A program made the position numbers and the translations under genes. Source: Tubulanus polymorphus (taxonomy: Eukaryota > Nemertea > Palaeonemertea > Tubulaniformes > Tubulanidae). Taken from it: 64,000 bases of DNA. The stretch is taken from assembly GCF_964204645.1 (NCBI RefSeq), contig NC_134028.1:24650153-24714152 (forward strand), read 5' to 3'. Positions 46,401-64,000 of the stretch are shown in pieces. Position 1 is the stretch's first letter. The number at the start of each line of letters is the position of its first letter. A model generated the notes under the pieces. The model was not told the DNA's origin, searched no databases, and saw only the letters and a list, made by a program, of their open reading frames with translations.

Positions 46401-48506
46401 ATATTATGTACAGGTTATTTCTTCACAAACCTTGTTGCGTGATCTGATATTTCTTTTGACTGCACAGTACAACAGATTGTAACATTTCGTGCGGACTGAC
46501 GTGAGCTTTGAAATTCTTCGGGTTCCACAGTTTACGGATCAGTTCTCCGAGCCTCTGCACGAGTAAGAACATCTGATCGCCCGGTGGACGTTTTATTGAC
46601 TTGTAATTGTCTTCGTTCAGGAAATAGTTCCTCAGCGGCGCGACGTGAGACAATGACTGAAAGTGCGCGATATTCGATTAAAATCTGATCGTGGCAAAAG
46701 TGATAATATTCTTTGGAGAAATTCTCGGAATACAAACCTGTAAAATTACATTACAATAATCGTTGAATTTGATATTGTTTAAACCAACAATGCCTAAAAA
46801 TATGGAAAAAATATTTTTAACGTGCAATAATCACCGGAAAGGCGGTCGATTTTAAAATATTCATTCATTAAGTCTGACGTCTTGAGTTGAACCTTGATAC
46901 TCTTTTGGGTTTCACAAAATTTCGAACAAAGTTTCAAACTAACTCGGTGAAAATTCTGACACGTCGTCGGTATTTACCTGGTAGGTAGGTAGTGCCGTCG
47001 TAAGCGCGAGATGCTTTAGAGCTCGTTTCGAAAGCACGAATTTCAGCATGTCTGAACGTAGGATTTAACACATACTAAAACATGGATGAATATAAATACC
47101 ATGATTTTTGATTAGAAAATCCTACATAGAAATATAAAATAAAACATTGAAAAGCATTTACATCCACTTCTTTTTAAAATTTGAAGCTGGTCCCAGTTCC
47201 ACAGTCCTTGGTTCAATCTGACTCCTGAGCGAAGTTCATTTTCAACTATAAACCCACAACAGTGGAACTGTTTCAACAACCGTGGAACTGGCTCCAAAAC
47301 CATGGATCTGGCTCCACAACGGTGGAACTGACTCCATAATTCAGAAAACGATTCCACAACTGACACTCCATAACTCTGGAACTGCGCTTTACTTAAAGAT
47401 GACTTAGAAAACATGACTAAGAAATAAGTTGAATTCAATGGCAAAAATATTTCAATACTTACAGTAATATCCTCTAAGGAAGAATCAATGATTTCATAAT
47501 TATCCGGTAAACAATAGAATTTACGCGAGTCTAAATTCAGGAATACGTGATGACTGTCCTGAACGCTGTGAGTGTACGCGTGAGATTTAAACCCTCGTCC
47601 TAAAATTAATCATAAAACAGATAGCATTCGTTAAGAGCTTGATGAAATTTCAACGAGAAATCTTTCATTTTTCGCCAAATCAGATTAACATAAAATTCGA
47701 TAGGTCAAATTATCATATAAAATTTTTTTCGATGAAAATATAATAGTTTTCATTTACCTTGAAAATATTTTCCACAAACTAAACAGGCGTAGACGTTTAG
47801 ATGTGACAGAGAAACTGAGCACAACTTCTCGAAATCGAAGTCTAACAATGACCTGTAATTAAGTGTTATACATCATCGATAATCGCACTAAGGTTATCTG
47901 CGAATTTAACATGGAAAATTGGAAAAACGTCAGAGGCTGCAGTTGCCTAAAAGTAGGTCAACCAGGGGATCATTCATTTATTACATACGCATGAAATTTG
48001 ACTAATTTCAAGTAAGTTTCAAAAACTAGTTTCAAAAAAACTTTAGAGCAACTGGCCCCTCAGTTCTATCGAGTCAAACTTGGTCCTCTGTATCTGTTGT
48101 GGTATCCGGATACTGACCTGTTGATTGTATCTAGATACGGACAGTGTCGACTTCTTTTATCTTCTACGTTTCCTTTTCTACTGATTTTCACTGAAATGTT
48201 TTAAAACAGGTTGAAATGATTAGCTGTCAAAGAGTTATAGTCTTTAATTTCTATACGTTTATGGTCCGTTTAATGAAATGACCACATTCTGAGGTCACTT
48301 AGAATCTCATATGTAAGACTGGTGTGTTACTACTTAAAATGATGTGTTCTATACAGGCATCGTACATCAGTGAAAATATTAAAATATCATATGATAGATT
48401 AATATACAAAAAACCTGGTACGAAGTGAAAATAATTTGAACATGCTCAAAATATAATTAGACATCGATATGCATGGAAACATGAAACCAAAAATGCTACC
48501 TGTCAT
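43493..48506 (-). CDS. USP39: USP39, U4/U6.U5 tri-snRNP-associated ubiquitin-specific-protease homologue
   Basis: Pre-mRNA splicing factor (yeast Sad1 orthologue). Exons in transcript order on the minus strand: 48506-48500, 48190-48118, 47852-47758, 47599-47463, 47074-46978, 46793-46738, 46656-46431, 45942-45797, 45709-45664, 45299-45076, 44802-44741, 44354-44213, 43897-43811, 43705-43493. Total 1611 nt, 536 residues (human 565). Seen: UBP zinc finger (RSRHCPYLDTINR, YACLVCGKYFQGRGFKSHAY, LPDNYEIIDSSLEDIT) and a USP fold (YDGTTYLPGIVGLNNIKFND, RPPGDQMFLLVQRLGELIRK, HVSPHEMLQSVVLCSQK, DPIEFLSWFLNALHSAL, NIIPQVPLATILAKFNG, LSESYIQIYELKK). The nucleophile position holds Asp (NNIKFNDYCN), as in other USP39, so it should be catalytically dead. 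The N-terminal RS-rich tail of mammals is missing, and the C-terminus gains a Ser/Thr tail. The seven-base first exon is the weakest part. Confidence 0.92.
44028..44192 (-). repeat. Dispersed repeat, 'GTGGCCAC...CAGGGAAA' family, USP39 intron
   Basis: CAGGGTGGCCACTTTAGAGT at one end and GGACAGTGGCCACCCTTGA at the other, with TTCCCTGAC words between, so this copy has both GGCCAC ends in inverted orientation. Confidence 0.6.
44888..45050 (-). repeat. Dispersed repeat with 'ACTCCTT...TTTAAAGATGCTT' words
   Basis: Plus strand reads CTCAAAACTGAAGGAGTTTT, then AAATTAAAGGAGTATCAAGC and GAATGAAGGAGTCATAGAG. Fragments of the same sequence lie at about 18540-18615 and 21118-21205 (plus) and 55566-55630 (minus). 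Confidence 0.5.
46080..46335 (+). repeat. Second copy of the 41290 dispersed repeat
   Basis: Same block order as 41290-41520, ending GTTGCCCCATCTAGCAATCT. Lies in the USP39 intron between exons 46431 and 45942; the long plus-strand open frame here is part of this repeat. Confidence 0.55.
47185..47395. repeat. Locally expanded 'CCAGTTCCACAGTT' element in a USP39 intron
   Basis: Begins GGTCCCAGTTCCACAGTCC and continues into about five imperfect copies of a 24-base word containing CCGTGGAACTGGCTCC, ending TCTGGAACTGCG. This produced a spurious minus-strand open frame. Confidence 0.6.
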
Positions 48507-48740
48507 GTAGCTGTAGATGGTAATTACTGCAGGGAAGCTTGTTATTTTCGAAATCGAAAATTCTAATGACTGCCGGTAATCAGATATTACTTTGCAACTG
48601 CTGAGGGAAGCAATTAATTCAAATCATATGTTAGTTTATTCAGTTAACATTAGTGGAGGCCGGACTTATGCCTGGTGTCGACAACCGAGCAGTGAATTTG
48701 AATAGTGAAGGAATTTCGTACATTGTTGAAGTTGCTTGTT
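48507..48740. promoter_or_regulatory. Short head-to-head promoter between USP39 and receptor copy 1
   Basis: Only 234 bases separate the proposed USP39 start codon (minus) from the receptor start codon at 48741 (plus), so the two should share a bidirectional promoter region. The whole segment recurs upstream of receptor copy 2 (about 56497-56749), with an 11-base loss that removes the USP39 start codon there. An upstream ATG at 48668 opens a 43-codon frame overlapping the receptor start out of frame. Confidence 0.45.
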
Positions 48741-51700
48741 ATGGAGCACCGACTGAGAGCGCGGCTTATAGCGTCGCTGATCATCTGGATCATCTGTCAA
48801 GTTCTCATCACACACGCTGATCATGCAGACTCTATCAAGGAAATGTCTGTGACGGTCAGTTCGTCTTGTAACAACACGTGGTACCAAGTCGATTCTACGT
48901 CAGGTTACATCGTTTCACCGAATTATCCGTCATTAACGCGCGGTGTTGAATGTCACTGGTTCGTCAACAGCTCTTTATCGGGAACTTTTCACGTTCAAGT
49001 TCATCACGATATCGAGCCGTCGATATTCTGTAGTGATAGCTACCTTCTCGTCTATGAGTCTGATAACCTATTGTGCGGTGAAGGAAAACGTGAAATCCTC
49101 CAGAACAATTCCATTTCGTTTATGTTTAAAAGCAACGTCAATGGTGCGCAGGGTAGTTGGGTTTATATTATATATCGTTATGAACACAGCCATTTGCAAA
49201 TTAGTCATAACTGCAGAACACATAATCTCAGATTGAAGGAATTACTAACATCGAAGGGATACAAATACAGTATAAACAGGCTACATATTTGTCAGTTGTT
49301 TCTAGAATGGATCGGGATGCCTGATGGTTTTGCTATGAACTTGACATTGAGTGGGATAACTATAAAATCAATTCCATCTGCTGATCCAGCGACTTCTATT
49401 GTTAAAATCCACGATGGATGGAACAGCAGCAGTGAACCAATAGCTCTTATACAGCATCAAATCGGACATCCACCTTCATCCTTTCATACTAAAACTAATA
49501 AAGCCATCATCTCTAAGCTTGATTATCAAGTGGTTTTCAGGTCACAACTATCAGTTCAGATGTATAAAATATCAGATTGGAACGTCTTTAATCCATTGAT
49601 TCAGATTTCTAATAACGAGTCTGGAGCGCTCATTCCTGATGACAACAGTTTACATGTAATAACTCGATCAAAACATTTACACTGCTGGTCTATCACAGTG
49701 CAGGTGTTACAGTACGTAGTCTTCAACTGGACACATGCACTCAACACATCCAATGACGTCATTGGTGTATATAAACTAGAAGGGTTACGCGTTGTTGGAA
49801 CTGATATTTTACTCGGTTACAACTACCTGGAATCACTGAGTGTTAAATCTGATGGCTTTCTTGTGATATTGTGCATTCTTACCAGACCGAACATCAAACC
49901 ATCAATCTTGAGAATAGATTTCAGGATGACACCAATGTCGATATCAAATCTACCCGTCACCAAGTACACGGTAAGTGCATATATAATTATGGGGAAAATA
50001 GTTGTTTCAGATTTTACCCAGTGATAACCTTTTTTTTTAAATTTCCTCAACCAACTTAGCACCACACAGTACATAATTAGCAGGTTCGATTTTTCCTTTC
50101 CCAATGGGGAGAGAGACCAGAGAAGAACCATCGACCTCTCTGTCGCTGCCAGTATTCCAACCGATAAACTGTGGACTGTGACCGTACGCGGCCACTTCAC
50201 CTCACCCAGCGATTATTCATTATAGTTATATTACATTTATTATATTACATATATGTCCGTTTAGCCAAGTAAAGCGCATCTAACTCATCCATACTCTACC
50301 GTATCTTCCTCCACACTACGAACAAAATTGTCATCTAAGGCTAAAAAAAATTGATACCTTGTTTCTCCGCTCTGCTGAGCTTAAATGTCTATCTACCCTA
50401 TACATTACTTGTTTTAAAATCGTGATCAATTTTACCATAACAGACCCGGCCGCTATAGAAATGAACTGTTTATAAATTTTATCATATTTTACAAAAATGA
50501 CCCGGCCGCTGCGGAGAAACAAGGTATCATTTTTGTTTAGCCTAAACATCAAATACAATAATATTATTTCTGTATTCATTGTAGATTCGTAGCCTCAATC
50601 CGCTATTCATACGTTTCTCGCTGCCTGCACGGCCGAAACGGACTCTAGAATATAGCATCAAAGCATATGATTCGAAATGGAAAATGGAAATCCATGATAG
50701 TGAACTGAAATTACCAATGCTATCTGCGAACTGTGAGCGAGCTGGATTTTACATATATGATGGTGGAAATTTCACAGCTAGACGCTATGGTCCGTATTGT
50801 CCCAACTTATCATTACTCGATTATCGACGAAGTCTGGTTAATATGATTACATCAGGCAGCTCAGTTATCATAGTAGGATATATTCAAGGGCGCCAAAGCC
50901 ACGACTTCGGCACGGGCAGGTTGGTGATACGTGCGTCACCTAACTGTGACGGCTACACTCTGCGGGAAGGAGAACACAAGGTGACAGTGACATCAAACTG
51001 TATCAGGCTAACACCCGAAAACCGCGGCGTTCCATTACATGCAATTCATGTATTATCAGCGTATGAATATGAATTCAACACGTGTTGGCCTGATCACTTA
51101 TACGAATATTCCATGTGTAGAGTTAATATGCTTGTACGTGCCCAGCGTCTCAACAACAGTCTCGTACTAACCACAGTGTCATTCTCGGATGTCCATTTGT
51201 TCGTAAGACGCGCGTACATTGTTGATTTGAGACGTACTTGTCAAACATTGAGGAGACATAACACACCAATTGACCGGTGGAAGATTAGTAAAAATGACTG
51301 CGGAATCGTACAGTCACCAAACTATCCAAGATCAGTTAGAATTCCACAAGTTATTATCACCTACAGCATCAAGTTCATATGGAACACAGGCCTGATCCAA
51401 TATTACCGATTTATTATAAAAAATATGAGCACGACGGCATGCATCAAGCCACATTCAGGGTCAATGGACTCTGTTATATATTTAGAGACAATATCGGAAG
51501 CAAGTAAAAGCTCTGCGCAGCACGAAAGAAAACTATGCGATACATATAGACAAGGAGTTATATTTCACAGCTTGGGGGAAACATCGCTGTTTTTCGAGGT
51601 GAAAGAGGAAATACCCATATTCCGCATACAATACATTTTAGAGAAACAGTCACCGAAGAAACAGCATGATAATGTCTGTAAAATAGGATTTCTAGATTCG

Positions 51701-54700
51701 GGAATTTCATGCGTCAAATACATCAGAGATGAACGTCTGAATTGGGAGAATGCTGAATTGTACTGTAGGCAGAACTACGCGGGACATCTACTCAGTATCA
51801 ACTCAGAACAGGAAATGATTTCTATTAAAACATTGTTAGCTACAAAACCTTTGCTCAATCAGGCGTATTCAAGAAAAGCGTTCGTAATGATGATTGGATT
51901 GAAATTAAAGGTAAGATGCCATATTCTAAGTCATAAGTGTATAACAATATTAATGTGGAAAATGTGGTTTAATCTAATCCTCATATTTTTTTCTAGCTCG
52001 ATACTGGTTATTACACGTGGACTGATGGGAAACCACTGAGCTACACAGAGTGGTTTAAACCTACAAATAATGAAACAATACCAGACGTTATTCAAGGATT
52101 GATATCTCCTCTTAGAAAACAACCGATAAATGACGTCAATATGCCGTGTACGGCGATGATACTGAATAATCCACGAGGATCGGCGAACTGGGTTCGATTC
52201 CCCTGCAAGATTGAAGAAGTTCATGCAAGTTTTTTCTGTGAATTGGAAAGAATTGATCTCGAGAATTCAACAGTAGTAAATGAAAAAGTAACAGACAAAA
52301 TATCAATTTCAGGAAACAATGTCACTATTTCGATAGATGAAAATATATTGCGAGTCGCTGGTTTCAGTGATTCAAGATGTACGATTGGTTGGACAAGCAT
52401 AAATAAAAGGTGCTATCAAATACTGACAAACTGGAACAAACATCGAGGTTTAGATTTAAAAACTGCCACAGAGATGTGTCATGGCGTCAATGGTGAAATT
52501 GGTTTTGCAATAACCAGTAACATAGAAACGGAAACTATGAATCTTATAAGCTCATTTCACTATCAATATCAATATAGCTCTTTACTTATGATGACTAATG
52601 ACAGTTTGCAAGTAGTAAAACCAGTAATCACTAGACATGAAATCACTTATATCCAATCAGTTAAATGGATGATGAAACAGTTTGATAATGCGAAAGATTC
52701 AGCGCATTCTGTTTTGTGTTCGTACAATGTAACTGACGAAGAGTTAACTTCTATAAGCGGTTGTAAATCCTGGCAGTTTGAATGTAACGATCAAAGATGT
52801 ATCAGCGACCATCGCGTATGTGATACCAGACACGACTGTCAACACGGTGAAGATGAACTCAATTGTACGGATATAAATCTACGTAATCACTTCCGTTGTA
52901 ACGATGGTCAGGTCGTATCAATAAGTGGTTTCTGCGATTTCATACAGGATTGTGTTGATGGTTCCGATGAGAACTTGTGTTTTCATCCCCCGTGTTTGTC
53001 CCAACAATTCCGCTGTGCTAGCGGTCAATGTATCAGTAGTTCGAACAGATGTGACGGGGAAACTAACTGTAAAGACGGTTCTGATGAAATAGGATGCTCC
53101 GCTCAACTGTGTCAGGGATTCCTATGTAACAGTGGAGATTGTATCAGTTCTCAGTTGTATCAGGATGGTGTTGTGGATTGCACTGGAAGCCTTGAAGAAG
53201 ATGAATTATTAACAACTACTAATGTTATAATGAATCCTACGATTCAGTGCAATAATGAGAACCGATGTACGGCTAACTTCACAAATCTCTGTACAGAATC
53301 TGATGAACAAAGGTGCTCTTTTAATTCTCCACATTGCTATTCTAGACGCCACAGATGTATATTAGAAAGATTAACAAATGGTTACCCAGTTTGTAGGAAT
53401 CTTGAGCATATATTGAGATGTGGAGAATTTGAATGTCCAGCTGGAACTGTTAAATGTCCAGCATCGTACTGTATACCAATAAGACAGGTGTGCGATGGTC
53501 GATCGGATTGCCCGAATTCAGAAGATGAGCAAAATTGTGAGACACTTTTATGTCCAGGAATGTTTACATGCGGTCAGGAAAATCGATGTATTCCGCAATC
53601 TAACGTTTGTGATGGTGTTGTGCATTGTAAACATACAACTGATGACGAGGCTTTCTGTAATGTCACATGTCCGAGAGGCTGTAAATGTCAAGGTCAATTG
53701 GTTGATTGTGAACATATTGGCTTATCAAATATTAATCATCTTTTTTCAGCATCAATTCGAATTCTCATGTTAGCAAATAACAAAATTATCTTGGACAAGT
53801 ATACATTTGTTTCATATGTTTATCTTCATATACTCAACATCTCATTCAATGAATTGTCTTACATTTTACCAAACTCATTCCTAAACCTGCATAATCTTCA
53901 TTCATTAGATCTTACACACAACAACATAACAGCATTGTCCACAAACACATTCAAGGGTTTGTATAATCTGAAAAAGTTACTGATAACTGAAAATCCATTA
54001 AGCCATTTACAAGATGACACTTTTCAAGATTTAAAGTCATTAACAATTCTTGATCTCCAAGGCCTTTTCTTATTGGAGCTTGGTAGAAATGTATTTAGAG
54101 GTTTATCTACACTGCAGACGCTAAATATCAGCAGTAACAGAATCCATCGTATTTCGCTTTATGCCTTTGCTGAATTAACTTCACTTGAAACCCTTGATAT
54201 AACCAACAACTACAAGGTTATTTCTGTCGATAGAAAGGTCTTTGACAACCTGACATCATTAGCATTTCTGATGTCTGATGCTTACAAATTTTGCTGCATG
54301 GCTTCGAATGTAGACCAGTGCCTTCCTGAAGCCGATCAATTTTCAACCTGTTCTGATCTGATGGGTAACACAGTCCTAAGAGTTATCATATGGGTCATTG
54401 CTTCATTCAGTTTTTTCGCTAACCTAATAGTCATTTCCCTTCGTGTTCAAGCAATTCGATCCTCCCCCTTAAATCCATCATCAGACATCATCATCATTAA
54501 TGTTGGAGTATGTGATTTTATGATGTCTGTATATTTGTTTTTGATCGCTGGAGCCGATTACGTTTATAAAGGTAGCTACTTTCTGAAATCAGAATCATGG
54601 ACGGGTAGTTCGTTGTGTAGTCTCGCCGGAGTCGTGGTCTCCATTTCTTGTGAAGGATCACTGACATTTTTGCTCATCATGACACGTCATAGATTCTCAA

Positions 54701-55272
54701 ATATTGTTAATCCATTTTCTGGAAGCCTGATTGCATCTCCGAGATATGTATCCATCATTTGCTGTATATGTTGGATTGTCTTGTTCATTATTGCATTACT
54801 ACCATTTTTGCCACTACCTTACTTTGGAAGCAACTTCTATGGTACCACGGGAGTATGTTTACCTATGAATTTAATTTCAATTGATGTCAACGCCTGGCAA
54901 TATTCATTTGCTATCTTTTCCTTGTCGAACGCTACAATACTTGCAACAATAATGGCGACATACGCGCAAATGTACAGACTTGTATCTGGAAGCAGGTCTG
55001 GTTCGGGTAGAGCTGATCCTACCGAACTGATTTTGGCACGCAGGAGTTTGGTGATTAATCTGTGTAATTTATTTTGCTGGCTGCCGTTAATAATCGTTCA
55101 GTTTTGCGCGGTTTTTCGGGTAGAAATACCGAATCAGGTGGCGGCTTGGCTGGCAGTACTTTTCTTACCAATTAACTCATCCCTAAATCCTATTCTTTAC
55201 ACCATACTGACTATTGATATGAAATCCATACGAGCAAAAACTAAACGCCGATTACATCAACTGAACAAATAA
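48741..55272 (+). CDS. CUB / C-type lectin / LDLa / LRR seven-helix receptor, copy 1 (GRL101/LGR-like)
   Basis: Exons 48741-49970, 50585-51910 and 51997-55272, plus a probable 38-codon exon 50070-50183. About 1943 residues (1981 with that exon). Order seen: signal peptide (LIASLIIWIICQVLITHADH), CUB (GYIVSPNYPSLTRGVECHW) and CUB-like segments, a typical CUB (CGIVQSPNYPRS), C-type lectin about 774-934 (WENAELYCRQNYAGHLLS, WTDGKPLSYTEW), a second lectin-like stretch about 980-1094, six LDLa repeats about 1107-1406 (SDE/EDE signatures), LRRNT (CPRGCKCQGQLVDC), about six LRRs, a Cys-rich hinge, and seven helices about 1646-1917. The core has N in helix 1, CDFMM in helix 2, FCWLPL in helix 6 and NPILY in helix 7, but TRH replaces the usual DRY/ERW. 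LDLa+LRR+7TM is the GRL101/type-C LGR plan; the lectin and CUB additions suggest carbohydrate or microbial ligands (inference). The start is the first ATG, not the upstream GTG frame. Confidence 0.88.
50070..50183 (+). CDS. Probable additional or cassette exon of receptor copy 1
   Basis: A 114-base open segment (38 codons, YIISRFDFSFPNGERDQRRT onward to LWTVT) is flanked by CACACAG| and |GTACGC. Both ends are phase 0, matching exons 49970 and 50585, so it can be included or skipped without a frame change. Copy 2 has the same segment with one amino-acid change while the adjacent intron has indels, which suggests coding constraint. It may be constitutive. Confidence 0.5.
50338..50543. mobile_element. 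MITE-like inverted-repeat element, family B, in receptor copy 1 intron
   Basis: Terminal inverted repeats of about 33 bases start AGGCTAAA and contain GATACCTTGTTTCTCCGC; the interior holds GACCCGGCCGC words. Present at the same place in copy 2, so insertion predates the duplication. A degraded relative is at 28762-28940. No coding capacity. Confidence 0.7.
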
Positions 55273-56147
55273 ACTGGTATCTAAGCATTATAGAGATGTA
55301 AATACTCCCAGTAAATCACGTTTCAATTTTATTTTGTTGCGAGGATACGACAGTCGTTATCAATATCTAGATCACAGACATTTCATATTCCTCATTCAGA
55401 ATATCCACTAAAAGTAATACATGAAATCTCATTATACGTATATTGATGATACAAAGTGATAAACAATATAAAGAGAATGCAGAATAATAATGAATACTGA
55501 AATTAGCTGAAGGCAATAATTTCGTTATTTAAGCTACGATCACACAAGCTTTTTTGGCCCGGGCCAAAGCAACCTCTAAAAGCATTTTCCATTGAGAGTT
55601 TTAAGAAATCAAGGAGTCATAGGGACTCTGGTCAATCAACAACATCAATATTGACACAAAAGTTGACTTTTTTTCTGCACACCCATTCGAAAAAATTGCC
55701 TCTGGATAATGAAGCAGGATAAAGTCACTAAAAATCAATTGTATGACGTTGAGATTTGAAATGAAATTTCATTATGTTCAAATTCAAGAATTCACAAAAT
55801 GGTGGTTTTTCTCTCTTAAAATTCACCTCGACTAAAGGAGACTCTTTGCCAATCCCTTTTATTGGAACAGAATTGGAATAATATCGAATATTCAGTTGTT
55901 GTCCACGATATTCATTGTCATGTTAAGAGCTAAATGAGTAATGAACCCCAAAAAGCAAAATATCCCAGAAAAACTGGTCTCATCATGATCAATTAAGCTT
56001 ACACATGGAATAGGCCTACACCAATTTGAAATTATAAATAAATCTCTTTTGTAATATGCCCACAATGGGGGACCTGAACACCAATATCAGTTTCACCCAG
56101 TTATTGAATCCAAAATCTAATAGCCTTTCAGCAGTTTTATTTGAACT
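55273..56147 (+). other. 3' flank of receptor copy 1
   Basis: Includes the likely 3' UTR; AATAAA is at 56037-56042. A 111-base segment at 55528-55638 is missing from copy 2. It contains the palindrome TTGGCCCGGGCCAA and a fragment of a dispersed repeat also seen near 18540, 21120 and 44990. No open frame of interest. Confidence 0.6.
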
Positions 56148-56206
56148 GGTTGAAATGATTAGCTGTCAAAAAGTTATAGTTTTTAATTTCTATATGTTTA
56201 TGGTCC

Positions 56207-56256
56207 ATTCAATCGTGGACTCTAAAACGATTTTCGTTTTAGAGTCCATGATTCAA
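56207..56256. repeat. Hairpin insertion specific to receptor copy 2
   Basis: Arms TCGTGGACTCTAAAACGA (56213-56230) and TCGTTTTAGAGTCCATGA (56234-56251) with a three-base loop, flanked by direct repeats ATTCAAT. The corresponding place in copy 1 (about 48267) lacks it. Confidence 0.8.
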
Positions 56257-56489
56257 TGCAATGACCACATTCTGAGGTCACTTAGAATCTCATATGTAAG
56301 ACTGGTGTGTTACTACTTAAAATGATGTGTTCTATACAGGCATCGTACATCAGTGAAAATATTAAAATATCATATGATAGATTAATATACAAAAAACCTG
56401 GAACGAAGTGAAAATAATTTGAACATCCTTAAAATATAATTAGACATCGATATTACTGCGATGCATGGAAACATGAAAACAAAAATGCT

Positions 56490-56497
56490 ACCTGTAG
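56490..56497 (-). pseudogene. Orphan USP39 exon 1 remnant in the duplicated promoter
   Basis: At the site corresponding to 48500-48506 the minus strand keeps the donor (CTACAG|GTAGCA) but has lost 11 bases containing ATG. No USP39 exon 2 lies downstream in that orientation, because the duplication stops short of it. It depends on the exon 1 model being right. Confidence 0.35.
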
Positions 56498-56749
56498 ATG
56501 GTAATTACTGCAGGGAAGCTTGTTATTTTCGAAATCGAAAATTCTAATGACTACCAGTAATCAGATGTTACTTTTCGCAAAGACCAGTTAATGTTGGATT
56601 TTGCAACTGCTGAGGGAAGCAAATAATTCAAATCAAATGTTAGTTTATCCAGTTAACATTAGTGGAGGCAGGACTTATGCCTGGTGTCACCAACCGAGCA
56701 GTGAATTTGAATAGTGAAGGAATTTCGTACATTGTTGAAGTTGCTTGTT

Positions 56750-59700
56750 ATGGAGCACCGACTGAGAGCGTCGCTTATAGCGTCACTGATCGTCTGTCAA
56801 GTTCTCATCACACACGCTGATCATGCAGACTCTATCAACGAAATGTCTGTGACAGTCAGTTCCTCTTGTAACAACACGTGGTACCAAGTCGATTCTACGT
56901 CCGGTTACATCGTTTCACCGAATTATCCGTCATTAACGCGCGGTGTTGAATGTCACTGGTTCGTCAACAGCTCTTTATCGGGAACTTTTCACGTTCAAGT
57001 TCATCACGATATCGAGCCGTCGATATTCTGTAGTGATAGCTACCTTCTCGTCTATGAGTCTGATAACCTATTGTGCGGTGAAGGAAAACGTGAAATCCTC
57101 CAGAACAATTCCATTTCGTTTATGTTTAAAAGCAACGTCAATGGTGCGCAGGGTAGTTGGGTTTATATTATATATCATTATGAACACAGCCATTTGCAAA
57201 TTAGTCATAACTGCAGAACACATAATCTCAGATTGAAGGAATTACTAACATCGAAGGGATACAAATACAGTATAAACAGGCTACATATTTGTCAGTTGTT
57301 TCTAGAATGGATCGGGATGCCTGATGGTTTTGCTATGAACTTGACATTGAGTGGGATAACTATAAAATCAATTCCATCTGCTGATCCAGCGACTACTATT
57401 GTTAAAATCCACGATGGATGGAACAGCAGCAGTGAACCAATAGCTCTTATACAGCATCAAATCGGACATCCACCTTCATCCTTTCATACTAAAACTAATA
57501 AAGCCATCATCTCTAAGCTTGATTATCAAGTGGTTTTCAGGTCACAACTATCAGTTCAGATGTATAAAATATCAGATTGGAACGTCTCTAATCCGTTGAT
57601 TCAGATTTCTAATAACGAGTCTGGAGCGCTCATTCCTGATGACAACAGTTTACACGTAATAACTCGATCAAAACATTTACACTGCTGGTCTATCACAGTG
57701 CAGGTGTTACAGTACGTAGTCTTCAACTGGACACATGCACTCAACACATCCAATGGCGTCATTGGTGTATATAAACTAGAAGGGTTACGCGTTGTTGGAA
57801 CTGATATTTTACTCGGTTACAACTACCTGGAATCACTGAGTGTTAAATCTGATGGCTTTCTTGTGATATTGTGCATTCTTACCAAACCGAACATCAAACC
57901 ATCAATCTTGAGAATAGATTTCAGGATGACACCAATGTCGATATCAAATCTACCCGTCACTAAGTACACAGTAAGTGCATATATAATTATGGGGAATATA
58001 TGTTTCAGATTTTACCCAGTGATTATCTTTTTTTTAATTTCTCAACACACTTAGCACCACACAGTACATAATTAGCAGGTTCGATTTTTCCTTTCCCAGT
58101 GGGGAGAGAGACCAGAGAAGAACCATCGACCTCTCTGTCGCTGCCAGTATTCCAACCGATAAACTGTGGACTGTGACCGTTGGCTTAAACCACGCGGCCA
58201 CTTCACCTCACCCAGTGATTATTCATTTTAGTTATTAAGTAAAGCGCATCTAACTCATCCGTACTCTACCGTAACTTCCTCCACACTACGAACAAAATTG
58301 TCATCTAAGGCTAAAAAAAATTGATACCTTGTTTCTCCGCTCTGCTGAGCTTAAATGTTGACCCGGCCGGCCGCCTATCTACCCTATACATTACTTTTAT
58401 TTAAATCGTGATCAATTTTACCATAAAAGACCCGGCCGCTATAGAAATGAACTGTTTATAAATTTTATCATATTTTACAAAAATGACCCGTCCGCTGCGG
58501 AGAAACAAGGTATCATTTTTGTTTAGCCTAAACATCAAATACAATGATATTATTTCTGTATTCATTGTAGATTCGTAGCCTCAATCCGCTATTCATACAT
58601 TTCTCGCTGCCTGCACGGCCGAAACGGACTCTAAAATATAGCATCAAAGCATATGATTCGAAATGGAAAATGGAAATCCATGATAGTGAATTGAAATTAT
58701 CAATGCTATCTGCGAACTGTGAGCGAGCTGGATTTTACATATATGATGGTGGAAATTTCACAGCTAGACGCTATGGTCCGTATTGTCCCAACTTATCATT
58801 ACTTGATTATCGACGAAGTCTGGTAAATATGATTACATCAGGCAGCTCAGTTATCATAGTAGGATATATTCAAGGGCGCCACTTCGGCACGGGCAGGTTG
58901 GTGATACGTGCGTCACCTAACTGTGACGGCTACACTCTGCGGGAAGGAGAACACAAGGTGACAGTGACATCAAACTGTATCAGGCTAACACCCGAAAACC
59001 GTGGCCTTCCATTACATGCAATTCATGTATTATCAGCGTATGAATATGAATTCAACACGTGTTGGCCTGATCACTTATACGAATATTCCATGTGTAGAGT
59101 TCATATGCTTGTACGTGCCCAGCGTCTCAACAACAGTCTCGTACTAACCACTGTGACATTCTCGCATGTCCATTTGTTCGTAAGACGCGCGTACATTGTT
59201 GATTTGAGACCTACTTGTCAAACATTGAGGAGACATGACACACCAATTGACCGGTGGAAGAATAGTAGAAATGACTGCGGAATCGTTCAGTCACCAAACT
59301 ATCCAAGATCAGTTAAAATTCCACGCATTATCCTCTACAGCATCGACATCAGATGGAACACAGGCCTGATCCAATATTACCGATTTATTATAAGAGATAT
59401 GAGCATGACGGCATGCATCAAGCCACATTCAGATTCAATGGACTCCGTTATATTTTTAGAGACAATATCAAGTAAAAGCTCTGCGCAGCACGAAAGAAAA
59501 TTATGTGATACATATAGACAAGGAGTTATATTTCACAGCTTGGGGGAAACATTTCTGAAGTTCGAGGTGAAAGACAGAATACCAAAATTCCGCATACAAT
59601 ACATTTTAGAGAAACAGTCACCGAAGAAACAGCGTGATAATGTCTGTAAAAGAGGATTTCTAGATTCGGGAATTTCATGCGTCAAATACATCAGAGATGA

Positions 59701-62700
59701 ACGTCTGAATTGGGAGAATGCTGAATTGTACTGTAGGCAGAACTACGCGGGACATCTACTCAGTATCAACTCAGAACAGGAAATGATTTCTATTAAAACA
59801 TTGTTAGCTACAAAACCTTTGCTCAATCAGGCGTATTCAAGAAAAGCGTTCGTAATGATGATTGGATTGAAATTAGAGGCAAGATGCCATATTCTAAGTC
59901 TTAAGTGTATAACAATATTAATGTGGAAAATGTGGTTTAATCTAATCCCGATATTTTTTTCTAGCTCGATACTGGTTATTACACGTGGACTGATGGGAAA
60001 CCACTGAGCTACAGTGAGTGGTTTAAACCTACAAATAATGAAACAATACCAGACGTTATTCAAGGATTGATATCTCCTCTTAGAAAACAACCGATAAATG
60101 ACGTCAATATGCCGTGTACGGCGATGATACTGAATAATCCACGAGGATCGGCGAACTGGGTTCGATTCCCCTGCAAGATTGAAGAAGTTCATGCAAGTTT
60201 TTTCTGTGAATTGGAAAGAATTGATCTCGAGAATTCAACAGCAGTAAATGAAAAAGAAACAGACAAAAAATCTATTTCAGGAAACAACGTCACTATTTCG
60301 ATAGATGAAAATATATTGCGAGTCGCTGGTTTCAGTGATTCAAGATGTACGATTGGTTGGACAAGCATAAATAAAAGGTGCTATCAAATACTGACAAACT
60401 GGAACAAACATCGAGGTTTAGATTTAAAAACTGCCACAGAGATGTGTCATGGCGTCAATGGTGAAATTGGTTTTGCAATAACCAGTAACATAGAAACGGA
60501 AACTATGAATCTTATAAGCTCATTTCACTATCAATATCAATATAGCTCTTTACTTATGATGACTAATGACAGTTTGCAAGAAGTAAAACCAGTAATCACT
60601 AGACATGAAATCACTTATATCCAATCAGTTAAATGGATGATGAAACAGTTTGATAATGCGAAAGATTCAGCGCATTCTGTTTTGTGTTCGTACAATGTAA
60701 CTGACGAAGAGTTAGCTTCTATAAGCGGTTGTAAATCCTTGCAGTTTGAATGTAACGATCAAAGATGTATCAGCGACCATCGCGTATGTGATACCAGACA
60801 CGACTGTCAACACGGTGAAGATGAACTCAATTGTACAGATATAAATCTACGTAATCACTTCCGTTGTAACGATGGTCAGGTTGTATCAATAAGTGGTTTC
60901 TGCGATTTCATACAGGATTGTGTTGATGGTTCCGATGAGAACTTGTGTTTTCATCCCCCGTGTTTGTCCCAACAATTCTGCTGTGCTAGCGGTCAATGTA
61001 TCAGTAGTTCGAACAGATGTGACGGGGAAACTAACTGTAAAGACGGTTCTGATGAAATAGGATGCTCCGCTCAACTGTGTCAGGGATTCCTATGTAACAG
61101 TGGAGATTGTATCAGTTCTCAGTTGTATCAGGATGGTGTTGTGGATTGCACTGGAAGCCTTGAAGAAGATGAATTATTAACAACTACTAATGTTATAATG
61201 AATCCTACGATTCAGTGCAATAATGAGAACCGATGTACGGCTAACTTCACAAATCTCTGTACAGAATCTGATGAACAAAGGTGCTCTTTTAATTCTCCAC
61301 ATTGCTATTCTAGACGCCACAGATGTATATTAGAAAGATTAACAAATGGTTACCCAGTTTGTAGGAATCTTGAGCATATATTGAGATGTGGAGAATTTGA
61401 ATGTCCAGCTGGTACTGTTAAATGTCCAGCATCGTACTGTATACCAATAAGACAGGTGTGCGATGGTCAATCGGATTGCCCGAATTCAGAAGATGAGCAA
61501 AATTGTGAGACACTTTTATGTCCAGGAATGTTTACATGCGGTCAGGAAAATCGATGTATTCCGCAATCTAACGTTTGTGATGGTGTTGTGCATTGTAAAC
61601 ATACAAGTGATGACGAGGCTTTCTGTAATGTCACATGTCCGAGAGGCTGTAAATGTCAAGGTCAATTGGTTGATTGTGAACATATTGGCTTATCAAATAT
61701 TAATCATCTTTTTTCAGCATCAATTCGAATTCTCATGTTCGCAAATAACAAAATTATCTTGGACAAGTATACATTTGTTTCATATGTTTACCTTCATATA
61801 CTCAACATCTCATTCAATGAATTGTCTTACATTTTACCAAACTCATTCCTAAACCTGCATAATCTTCATACATTAGATCTTACACACAACAACATAACAG
61901 CATTGTCCACAAACACATTCAAGGGTTTGTATAATCTGAAAAAGTTACTGATAACTGAAAATCCATTAAGCCACTTACAAGATGACACTTTTCAAGATTT
62001 AAAGTCACTAACAATTCTTGATCTCCAAGGCCTTTTCTTATTGGAGCTTGGTAGAAATGTATTTAGAGGTTTATCTTCACTGCAGACGCTAAATATCAGC
62101 AGTAACAGAATCCATCATATTTCGCTTTATGCCTTTGCTGAATTAACTCCACTTGAAACCCTTGATATAACCAACAACTACAAGGTTATTTCTGTCGACA
62201 GAAAGGTCTTTGACAACCTGACATCATTAGCCTTTCTGATGTCTGATGCTTACAAATTTTGCTGCATGGCTTCGAATGTAGACCAGTGCCTTCCTGAAGC
62301 CAATCAATTTTCAACCTGTTCTGATCTGATGGGTAACACAGTCCTAAGAGTTATCATATGGGTCATTGCTTCATTCAGTTTTTTTGCTAACCTAATAGTC
62401 ATTTCCCTTCGTGTTCAAGCAATTCGATCCTCCCCCTTAAATCCATCATCAGACATCATCATCATTAATGTTGCAGTATGTGATTTTATGATGTCTGTAT
62501 ATTTGTTTTTGATCGCTGGAGCCGATTACGTTTATAAAGGTAGCTACTTTCTGAAATCAGAATCATGGACGGGTAGTTCGTTGTGTAGTCTCGCCGGAGT
62601 CGTGGTCTCCATTTCTTGTGAAGGATCACTGACATTTTTGCTCATCATGACACGTCATAGATTCTCAAATATTGTTAATCCATTTTCTAGAAGCCTGATT

Positions 62701-63240
62701 GCATCTCCGAGATATGTATCCATCATTTGCTGTATATGTTGGATTGTCTTGTTCATTATTGCATTACTACCATTTTTGCCACTACCTTACTTTGGAAGCA
62801 ACTTCTATGGTACTACGGGAGTATGTTTACCTATGAATTTAATTTCAATTGATGTCAACGCCTGGCAATATTCATTTGCTATCTTTTCCTTGTCGAACGC
62901 TACAATACTTGCAACAATAATGGCGACATATGCGCAAATGTACAGACTTGTATCCGGAAGCAGGTCTGGTTCGGGTAGAGCTGATCCTACCGAACTGATT
63001 TTGGCACGCAGGAGTTTGGTGATAAATCTGTGTAATTTATTTTGCTGGCTGCCGTTAATAATCGTTCAGTTTTGCGCGGTATTTCGGGTAAAAATACCGA
63101 ATCAGGTGGCGGCTTGGCTGGCAGTACTTTTCTTACCAATTAACTCATCCCTAAATCCTATTCTTTACACCATACTGACTATTGATATGAAATCCATACG
63201 AGCAAAAACTAAACGCCGATTACATCAACTGAACAAATAA
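56750..63240 (+). CDS. CUB / C-type lectin / LDLa / LRR seven-helix receptor, copy 2
   Basis: Exons 56750-57970, 58571-59878 and 59965-63240, plus the probable cassette exon 58065-58178; about 1934 residues (1972 with it). Same domain order as copy 1. The first and third coding exons differ from copy 1 at only about 2% of residues, whereas about 145 residues around the typical CUB domain (59250-59660) differ at about 21 positions plus two indels. The signal peptide is three residues shorter. The third LDLa repeat has FCCASGQC instead of FRCASGQC. The donor after 59878 is GC (GAG|GCAAGA) where copy 1 has GT. No frameshift or stop is present, so the copy looks functional if the GC donor is used. 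Confidence 0.87.
58065..58178 (+). CDS. Probable additional or cassette exon of receptor copy 2
   Basis: Counterpart of 50070-50183: 114 bases, phase 0 at both ends, acceptor CACACAG|, donor ACC|GTTGGC (weaker than the GTACGC of copy 1). One residue differs (Asn to Ser). Confidence 0.45.
58308..58529. mobile_element. MITE-like element, family B, in receptor copy 2 intron
   Basis: Same element and position as 50338-50543 but with an extra GACCCGGCCGGCCGC stretch in its left interior. Inverted ends are intact. Confidence 0.65.
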
Positions 63241-64000
63241 ACTGGTATCTAAGCATTATAGAGATGTAAATACTCCCAGTAAATCACGTTTCAATTTTAT
63301 TTTGTTGTGAGGATACGACAGTCGTTATCAATATCTAGATCACAGACATTTCATATTCCTCATTCAGAATATCCACTAAAAGTAATACATGAAATCTCAT
63401 TATACGTATATTGATGATACAAAGTGATAAACAATATAAAGAGAATGCAGAATAATAATGAATACTGAAATTAGCTGAAGGCAATAATTTCGTTAACAAC
63501 ATCAATATTGACACAAAAGTTGACTTTTTTCTGCACACCCATTTCGAAAAAATCGCCTCTGGATAATGAAGCAGGATAAAGTCACTAAAAATCAATTGTA
63601 TGACGTTGAGATTTGAAATGAAATTTCATGATGTTCAAATTCAAGAATTCACAAAATGGTGGTTTTCTCTCTTAAAATTCACCTCGACTAAAGGAGACTC
63701 TTTGCCAATCCCTTTTATTGGAACAGAATTGGAATAATATCGAATATTCAGTTGTTGTCCACGATATTCATTGTCATGTTAAGAGCTAAATGAGTAATGA
63801 ACCCCAAAAAGCAAAATATCCCAGAAAAACAGGTCTCATCATGATCAATTAAGCTTACAAATAAATGGAATAGGCCTACATCAATTTGAAATTATAAATA
63901 AATCTTTTTTGTAATATGCCCACAATGGGGGACCTAAACATCAATATCAGTTTCACCCAGTTATTGAAACCAAAATCTAATAGCCTTTCAGCAGTTTTAT
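63241..64000 (+). other. 3' flank of receptor copy 2
   Basis: Matches 55273-56140 except for the missing 111-base segment and small indels. The minus-strand open frame at 63335-63595 has no supporting features. Confidence 0.6.

Follow-up and report, generated by a model that had tools for sequence, protein, structure and literature searches.

A 64,000-nucleotide stretch of the genome of Tubulanus polymorphus (C4:24650153-24714152, i.e., contig NC_134028.1, in a 267.8-Mb assembly of 77 contigs; hereafter, the window) contains, on the plus strand at 48741-55272, three open exons whose joined product would place CUB and C-type-lectin-like modules in front of a receptor with LDLa modules, leucine-rich repeats (LRRs) and a rhodopsin-type seven-transmembrane (7TM) core. 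The locus raises the question of whether the head and the core belong to one gene and what a receptor built in this way would be for. As described below, head and core very probably lie in one gene, the genome apparently contains a few hundred related copies of it, and across the family the outer blocks vary much more than the signalling part. We consider it about as probable as not (roughly 0.5) that these genes encode lineage-expanded type-C2-like (GRL101-like, relaxin-receptor-like) LRR G-protein-coupled receptors (GPCRs) whose CUB and C-type-lectin-like head would serve diversified recognition.

The three exons join in frame through GT-AG sites into a predicted gene model of 1,943 residues without internal stops, in line with the preliminary description of the locus, which had been made from the sequence alone. 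A hydropathy scan revealed a peak at residues 4-29 that fits a signal peptide and five further peaks, all within the 7TM region. From its N-terminus, the predicted protein comprises a signal peptide, one CUB followed by CUB-like blocks, a C-type lectin domain, six LDLa modules, about seven LRRs and the rhodopsin-type 7TM, laid out as follows.

48741..49970, plus strand: exon 1, residues 1-410, with the hydrophobic stretch (residues 4-29), CUB1, B2 and B3
48885-49160, plus strand: CUB1, residues 49-140, found by Pfam CUB on exon 1
49191-49580, plus strand: block B2, in exon 1
49581-49955, plus strand: block B3, conserved, in exon 1
49971..50584, plus strand: intron 1, phase 0, ACG/GTAAGT...TTGTAG/ATT
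50585..51910, plus strand: exon 2, residues 411-852, with B4, B5, B6 and the first half of CTLD1
50585-50944, plus strand: block B4, in exon 2
50945-51274, plus strand: block B5, in exon 2
51275-51670, plus strand: block B6, in exon 2, probable second CUB by a small profile from the Protein Data Bank (PDB)
51671-51910, plus strand: first half of the C-type lectin domain CTLD1, in exon 2
51911..51996, plus strand: intron 2, phase 0, GT donor, interrupting the lectin domain
51997..55272, plus strand: exon 3, residues 853-1943 and stop, a single open frame covering the second half of CTLD1, B8, LDLa, LRR and 7TM
51997..52254, plus strand: second half of CTLD1, with an NNPRGSANW tract (52165-52191) identical in 18/18 family members
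52333..52734, plus strand: block B8, highly variable, possible degenerate second C-type-lectin-like domain by PDB profile
52735..53685, plus strand: LDLa array, six Pfam stretches with Cys motifs
53686..54360, plus strand: LRR domain and hinge, about seven repeats by motif, also found by Pfam
54361..55269, plus strand: rhodopsin-type 7TM core (Pfam 7tm_1), nearest solved relative relaxin receptor 1 (7tmw)
54688-54696, plus strand: DRY position, H-R-F, in the register of the RXFP1 and LHCGR alignments

Two exact protein motifs were used to follow the family through the genome. The exon-1 motif SKHLHCWSI, identical in the 18 members compared, was found at 172 genome places and the back-translated exon-3 motif NNPRGSANW at 289; neither reversed pattern was found anywhere. 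Such exact patterns undercount, and they count intact and broken copies alike. The linkage between the two ends was counted where the first 100 places of each motif overlap, which covers 69 exon-1 places out of the 172 and 96 exon-3 places out of the 289; places beyond the overlap were left aside, as were four exon-3 places that lie on C3, for which the exon-1 set has no entry. For 66 of the 69 exon-1 places, among them both copies in the window, the exon-3 motif follows downstream on the same strand at a distance of 1.5-5 kb (median 2,462 bp), compared to 0 in the upstream control and 1 in the opposite-strand control; C8:3568201, which lay outside the cut, would pair too. In the reverse direction 66 of 96 places were linked, the exact exon-1 motif being missing at the other 30. 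In three loci picked for lacking this motif (L023, L024 and L026), all blocks were nonetheless found in order by tblastn, and thus it was the motif, not the exon, that had diverged there.

The possibility that the CUB/lectin exons form a gene separate from the LDLa-LRR-7TM exon is very unlikely in view of this linkage and is rejected. Nothing was found in its favour: of the three exon-1 places that could speak for it by having no exon-3 motif 1.5-5 kb downstream, two (C6:18751330 and C8:1216770) are followed, 4-5 kb further on along the same strand, by a 7TM match, the exon order is kept in 16/16 full-length candidates, and CTLD1 itself spans exons 2 and 3 across intron 2. Exon 3 alone encodes half of the lectin domain plus the entire LDLa-LRR-7TM part, and is in this sense shared by head and core.

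The size of the family was estimated from homology matches as well. Exon-1 matches (102 scored of 369 candidates) were found on C12, C6, C9, C10 and C8 with 66-75% identity outside the window, and 7TM matches (131 scored of 556 candidates) showed 76-86% identity outside the window. Counted by eye, the reading frame is shorter than 1,000 amino acids in 21 of the 131 scored 7TM matches; these copies are probably frayed. In 20, the matched stretch contains one stop, and at least one of these stops (L019) is a natural end. Leaving apart the count of working genes, the locus thus appears to be one member of a family with a few hundred copies, which the preliminary description, along with the tandem copy described below, had overlooked. 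No relatives were confirmed in viral contigs or in bacterial and archaeal genome contigs. Searches of the assembly for marker genes gave no match for COX1 (exon by exon in the nuclear sequence, which would miss a mitochondrion outside the assembly), for molluscan haemocyanin (for which the control gave no match either) or for hemerythrin (controls matched in 7 of 14, though a gene with split exons could escape such a search).

Three arrangements outside the window deserve mention. Locus L025 (C3:20858000-20867900), likewise chosen for lacking the exon-1 motif, contains partial copies only: CUB1-B2-B3 on the minus strand and, on the plus strand, B6-CTLD1 as well as a run from CUB1 to B8 that continues up to the end of the fetched stretch; frayed copies therefore exist. 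At C10:2517900-2531300 (L021 and L022), three near-identical units of exon 1 plus exon 2, 3,303 bp apart, precede a single exon 3; they may offer a choice of heads for the one core, or else stem from a very recent duplication or a fault in the assembly. On C6, four exon-1 matches at ~19.82-19.85 Mb repeat at ~20.05-20.08 Mb with an offset of ~232.3 kb, and for three of the four the scores are equal. This points either to a recent duplication of a large genomic segment or to one introduced by the assembly.

Sixteen paralogous loci, fetched for having both ends in the match lists and thus not a random sample, were compared with the gene under study (copy 1). In all 16, exons 1, 2 and 3 are present in order and give open three-exon models of 1,906-1,942 amino acids. 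Since the models allowed phase-0 introns only, with splice sites chosen by a simple score, the shared phase is a working assumption and not an independent result; under this restriction, a position for intron 1 was obtained in 16/16 paralogs. Identity to copy 1 was 65-74% for exon 1, 68-78% for exon 3 and 42-58% for exon 2, the fastest-diverging one.

Mean pairwise identity, calculated in 40-residue windows for 17 members (copy 2 was left out), shows where the variation lies. It is as low as 0.34-0.47 at residues 601-760 and 0.42-0.48 at residues 921-1040, reaches 0.91-0.93 at residues 281-360 and 0.89 at residues 881-920, and in the core amounts to 0.69-0.86 (LDLa, 1161-1440) and 0.63-0.95 (7TM, 1641-1920). 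The ratios of nonsynonymous to synonymous differences (pN/pS), summed over all pairs without copy 2, rank the blocks as 7TM (0.22), LDLa (0.26), the lectin domain (0.32), LRR (0.36), CUB1, B2, B3 and B4 (0.44-0.55) and, finally, B5, B6 and the linker with B8 (0.57-0.59). The outer blocks vary much more than the signalling part across the family.

Synonymous divergence is patchy along the gene. In 100 interchromosomal pairs, differences at fourfold sites were 0.12-0.23 in residue windows 1-160, 281-360 and 881-920, and elsewhere 0.45-0.49 (161-280), 0.53-0.70 (601-760), 0.43-0.55 (921-1080) and 0.30-0.58 (7TM). The variance of the fourfold window means was 0.0186, while 2,000 column shuffles gave at most 0.0086; when only columns with conserved residues were used, it was 0.0142 versus at most 0.0117 in shuffles. 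The simplest reading of this pattern would be gene conversion confined to some tracts, the alternative being constraint on the DNA itself.

The window contains a second, tandem copy of the gene, located downstream of copy 1.

56750..57970, plus strand: copy 2 exon 1, open frame
58571..59878, plus strand: copy 2 exon 2, ending at a GC donor, GAG/GCAAGA
59965..63240, plus strand: copy 2 exon 3, open frame

The tandem units 56144-63495 and 48205-55527 are 95.6% identical over 7.4 kb. Copy 2 (56750-63240) is open and encodes 1,934 amino acids, with 1,875 of 1,943 aligned columns the same as in copy 1. Out of 66 nonsynonymous changes between the copies, 25.5 fall in B6, where synonymous divergence (dS) is 0.118 compared to 0.031 overall. 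A search for a donor of this diverged B6 patch of copy 2 yielded no close candidate, the best match outside the window being 77% identical over 174 bases (40 of 55 candidates scored). The intron 2 donor of copy 2 reads GC at 59879-59880, where copy 1 has GT; the intron may be a functional one of the GC-AG kind, or else splicing of copy 2 may be defective.

The core was identified with the whole protein as a query. Pfam returned LDLa (E = 8e-34, six stretches), LRR_8 (8e-29) and 7tm_1 (5e-18), the latter spanning residues 1661-1920 and positions 2-260 of the 260-position profile, and so the combination of LDLa, LRR and seven helices proposed earlier as GRL101/type-C LGR-like is borne out. The best GPCR match of exon 3 is RXFP1 (3.6e-78); the rows above it are LRP2, matched by the LDLa part. 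When the 7TM alone was compared with the PDB, relaxin receptor 1 (7tmw) was found at 9e-43, with LHCGR next at 3e-17. The core would thus be that of a type C (C2/GRL101)-like LGR of the relaxin-receptor branch, as assigned by best match only.

The preliminary description had read T-R-H at the DRY/ERW position. In the alignments with LHCGR and RXFP1, the ERW of the former and the EKY of the latter fall instead on H-R-F, two residues further, and in this register Arg3.50 is retained. N1.50, D2.50, R3.50, W4.50, CWxP and NPxxY are conserved in 18/18 members, Arg3.50, CWxP and NPxxY being marks of class A GPCRs that couple to G proteins; position 3.49 is occupied by H in 12 members, by Q in 4 and by Y and N in one each, and position 3.51 is F or Y. 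From general knowledge of GPCRs, the loss of an acidic 3.49 with the Arg kept could lead to higher basal activity.

The head is less uniform than the several CUB modules initially described. Pfam CUB matched exon 1 taken alone (E = 2e-5, 25.3 bits versus a cut-off of 21.4) and found CUB1 in 15/18 members at E ≤ 0.01, and the family profile of exon 1 matched cubilin (2e-12) and MASP1 (1e-7) in the PDB. A Pfam scan of the whole 1,943-residue protein at E ≤ 1 reported neither CUB nor Lectin_C, both of which appear on shorter pieces only. AlphaFold modelling of exon 1 from a single sequence gave a pLDDT (predicted local distance difference test) of 34.5.

The remaining blocks were searched with two profiles, one built from seven CUB stretches in the PDB and a second that adds the CUB1 members, using 90 shuffles as a control; since the 18 members are mutually related, counts per member are not independent. 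With the first profile, B6 was matched in 18/18 members at E ≤ 1 and in 8/18 at E ≤ 0.01 (shuffles, 3/90 and 0/90), and with the second, in 10/18 at E ≤ 0.01 (shuffles, 0/90). Searching B6 against the PDB gave nothing at E ≤ 1, Pfam CUB was found in B6 of 0/18 members, and hhalign of CUB1 against B6, the sole result among the head-block comparisons, gave 54% over 21 columns only. B2 was matched by the seven-stretch profile in 10/18 members at E ≤ 1 and 2/18 at E ≤ 0.01 (shuffles, 3/90), and B4 in 9/18 at E ≤ 1 (shuffles, 0/90); with the second profile, for which one of 90 B8 shuffles reaches 0.005, B2 drops to 0/18 and B4 to 1/18. CUB support for B3 (1/18) and B5 (2/18) was lacking with the seven-stretch profile. 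Thus, one CUB stands by Pfam and B6 is probably a second, there are hints that B2 and B4 may be CUB as well, and the claim finds no support for B3 and B5.

As to the lectin domain, of which at least one had been claimed, Lectin_C was detected at E = 3e-8 when the halves of CTLD1 were joined across intron 2, compared to 0.007 on exon 2 alone. Exons 2 and 3 together therefore complete one domain. The start of Lectin_C was seen, weakly, in 17/18 exon-2 members (E ≤ 0.1), and the domain was found in 5/5 further paralogs submitted out of the 16 fetched. EPN/QPD and WND are the canonical calcium- and sugar-binding motifs of C-type lectins. Neither EPN, QPD nor WND is present in CTLD1 of any of the 18 members, which leads us to reject a canonical sugar-binding lectin and makes textbook calcium-dependent sugar binding unlikely. 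CTLD1 would more likely bind protein or glycoprotein than sugar; the carbohydrate-sensing role suggested previously is weakened, and a microbe- or self-sensing role is conjecture. The family profile of B8 matched the multi-lectin IgY receptor and LY75 in the PDB at 9e-4, with no single stretch significant, and Pfam found nothing in B8 of copy 1; B8 is possibly a degenerate lectin-like domain.

How do these receptors compare with known ones? Human relaxin receptor 1 has one LDLa module and is not known to carry CUB or lectin domains. It is the best solved GPCR match over LRR and 7TM (7tmw), and differs in having E-K-Y at the DRY position, where H-R-F is found here. LGR types C1 and C2 are named in PMC4079206 and PMC11863921. 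Lymnaea GRL101, a type C2 LGR, shares with the predicted protein several LDLa modules, LRRs and a relaxin-receptor-like 7TM (PMC8286064, PMC4079206); it is described as having twelve LDLa modules, six LRRs and no CUB/lectin head, whereas here there are six LDLa modules, about seven LRRs, CUB and lectin. The Ciona LDLRR-GPCRs (PMC2396169) are likewise a lineage-specific expansion with an RXFP-like 7TM and LDL-A repeats, but they are without LRRs, CUB is not in the text, and they comprise 14 confirmed members in a cluster of 32; their expressed sequence tag matches are mostly from blood and haemocytes.

The closest parallel is the schistosome-resistance region SudRes2 of Biomphalaria sudanica (PMC12297450), where 440 kb contain ten GRL101-like genes that combine LRR, LDL and C-type lectin domains, along with two incomplete genes; six more lie elsewhere, and gene content differs between haplotypes. 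As in SudRes2, a rhodopsin-type GPCR, LRR, LDL-A and an N-terminal C-type lectin-like domain are combined here in clustered genes. The authors describe the lectin domain as unique to the SudRes2 genes. Since lectin domains on GRL101-like receptors are thus already in print, what appears to be new is confined to the CUB part and the scale: the word CUB is absent from the main text of PMC12297450, and 172-289 motif places on many contigs are seen here versus 12 clustered genes there. In open-access literature naming both GRL101 and CUB, "CUB" was part of a journal DOI or belonged to an unrelated Kremen row (PMC7217437), and among the open-access titles and beginnings of abstracts listed (in one case 20 of 1,161), an architecture joining CUB or lectin to an LGR, LDLa or a rhodopsin-type receptor was not found; predicted proteins in databases, among which relatives may already be annotated, were outside the scope of this search.

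In the scheme that we favour, the making of the protein, ligand binding by the head, the LDLa/LRR relay, the G protein used and recognition of non-self rather than a hormone are inferred, not shown. The variable outer blocks (B2, B4-B6 and B8) would most likely bind diverse outside protein or glycoprotein ligands. The binding event would be passed via LDLa and LRR to the 7TM, and the conserved LDLa-LRR-7TM part would most likely turn it into a G-protein signal, as in relaxin receptors. Since the LDLa module of relaxin receptors is required for cyclic AMP signalling after binding (as cited in PMC2396169), a similar relay here is plausible. The target of recognition would be non-self, i.e., microbes, parasites or other individuals, and not a hormone. 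More specifically, and only tentatively, the family may be a hitherto undescribed innate recognition (immune or allorecognition) system of a few hundred GPCR genes, in which the CUB/lectin head is diversified in variable blocks set between tracts that gene conversion keeps similar from chromosome to chromosome, synonymous sites included, and all heads signal through one conserved core of the relaxin-receptor type.

Several observations weigh against diversified recognition. CUB1 and B3 are conserved, and so the head is not variable throughout. Summed pN/pS exceeds 1 in no block; it does so in single close pairs (B4, 2.14 for L016/L020; CTLD1, 1.84 for the two window copies, with 4 changes), which contain few changes, and positive selection is therefore not claimed. 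Relaxed constraint could explain the variable head. The sugar-binding motifs are absent from CTLD1, as noted above, and the core resembles a peptide-hormone receptor. Finally, the validated and top variants in SudRes2 lie in a neighbouring Zn-RING-IAP gene (PMC12297450), and thus the receptors there are linked to resistance by location only.

An alternative that we regard as rather unlikely is that these are chemosensory receptors for environmental signals or pheromones, which multiplied in the manner of olfactory GPCRs and whose heads bind waterborne proteins or peptides. Large tandem GPCR arrays are the usual picture for chemoreceptors, and a conserved 7TM with a varied outer part also speaks for this possibility. 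In most chemosensory GPCRs, however, it is the 7TM pocket that varies, whereas the 7TM of this family ranks with its best-conserved parts (pN/pS of 0.22) and the soluble head is what varies. In starfish, a GRL101-like gene is expressed at a higher level in sensory tentacles than in tube feet, though not exclusively (PMC6267866), which again would fit a sensory role.

Still less probable is that the family consists of receptors for relaxin/IGF-like peptides, in which the head tunes transport or clustering only and the expansion is mostly redundant or decaying. Consistent with this view, the 7TM and LRR are nearest to RXFP1, and the 21 of 131 scored 7TM matches in short frames indicate that some copies are decaying. 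Yet hormone receptors are normally few in number, and a few hundred copies with divergent heads are ill-suited to one or a few peptides. IGF has been proposed as the ligand of GRL101, but the same source finds one GRL101 in each ambulacrarian studied (PMC8286064).

Elsewhere in the window, inspection of open reading frames by eye revealed ankyrin-repeat exons together with long Q-rich and acidic exons at ~11100-39700 on the plus strand, with the look of an ANKHD1/MASK-type gene, and, on the minus strand at 47112-47609, an open reading frame resembling the zinc-finger region of a ubiquitin hydrolase.

We conclude that more weight than on the single gene falls on how large the family is, together with its pattern of a variable head on a conserved core. 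This suggests that GPCRs may serve some animals as a diversified repertoire for recognition, and it provides a defined set of genes with which this can be tested. The family also presents a natural experiment, in which a relaxin-receptor-type core appears to have been coupled to new sensing domains.

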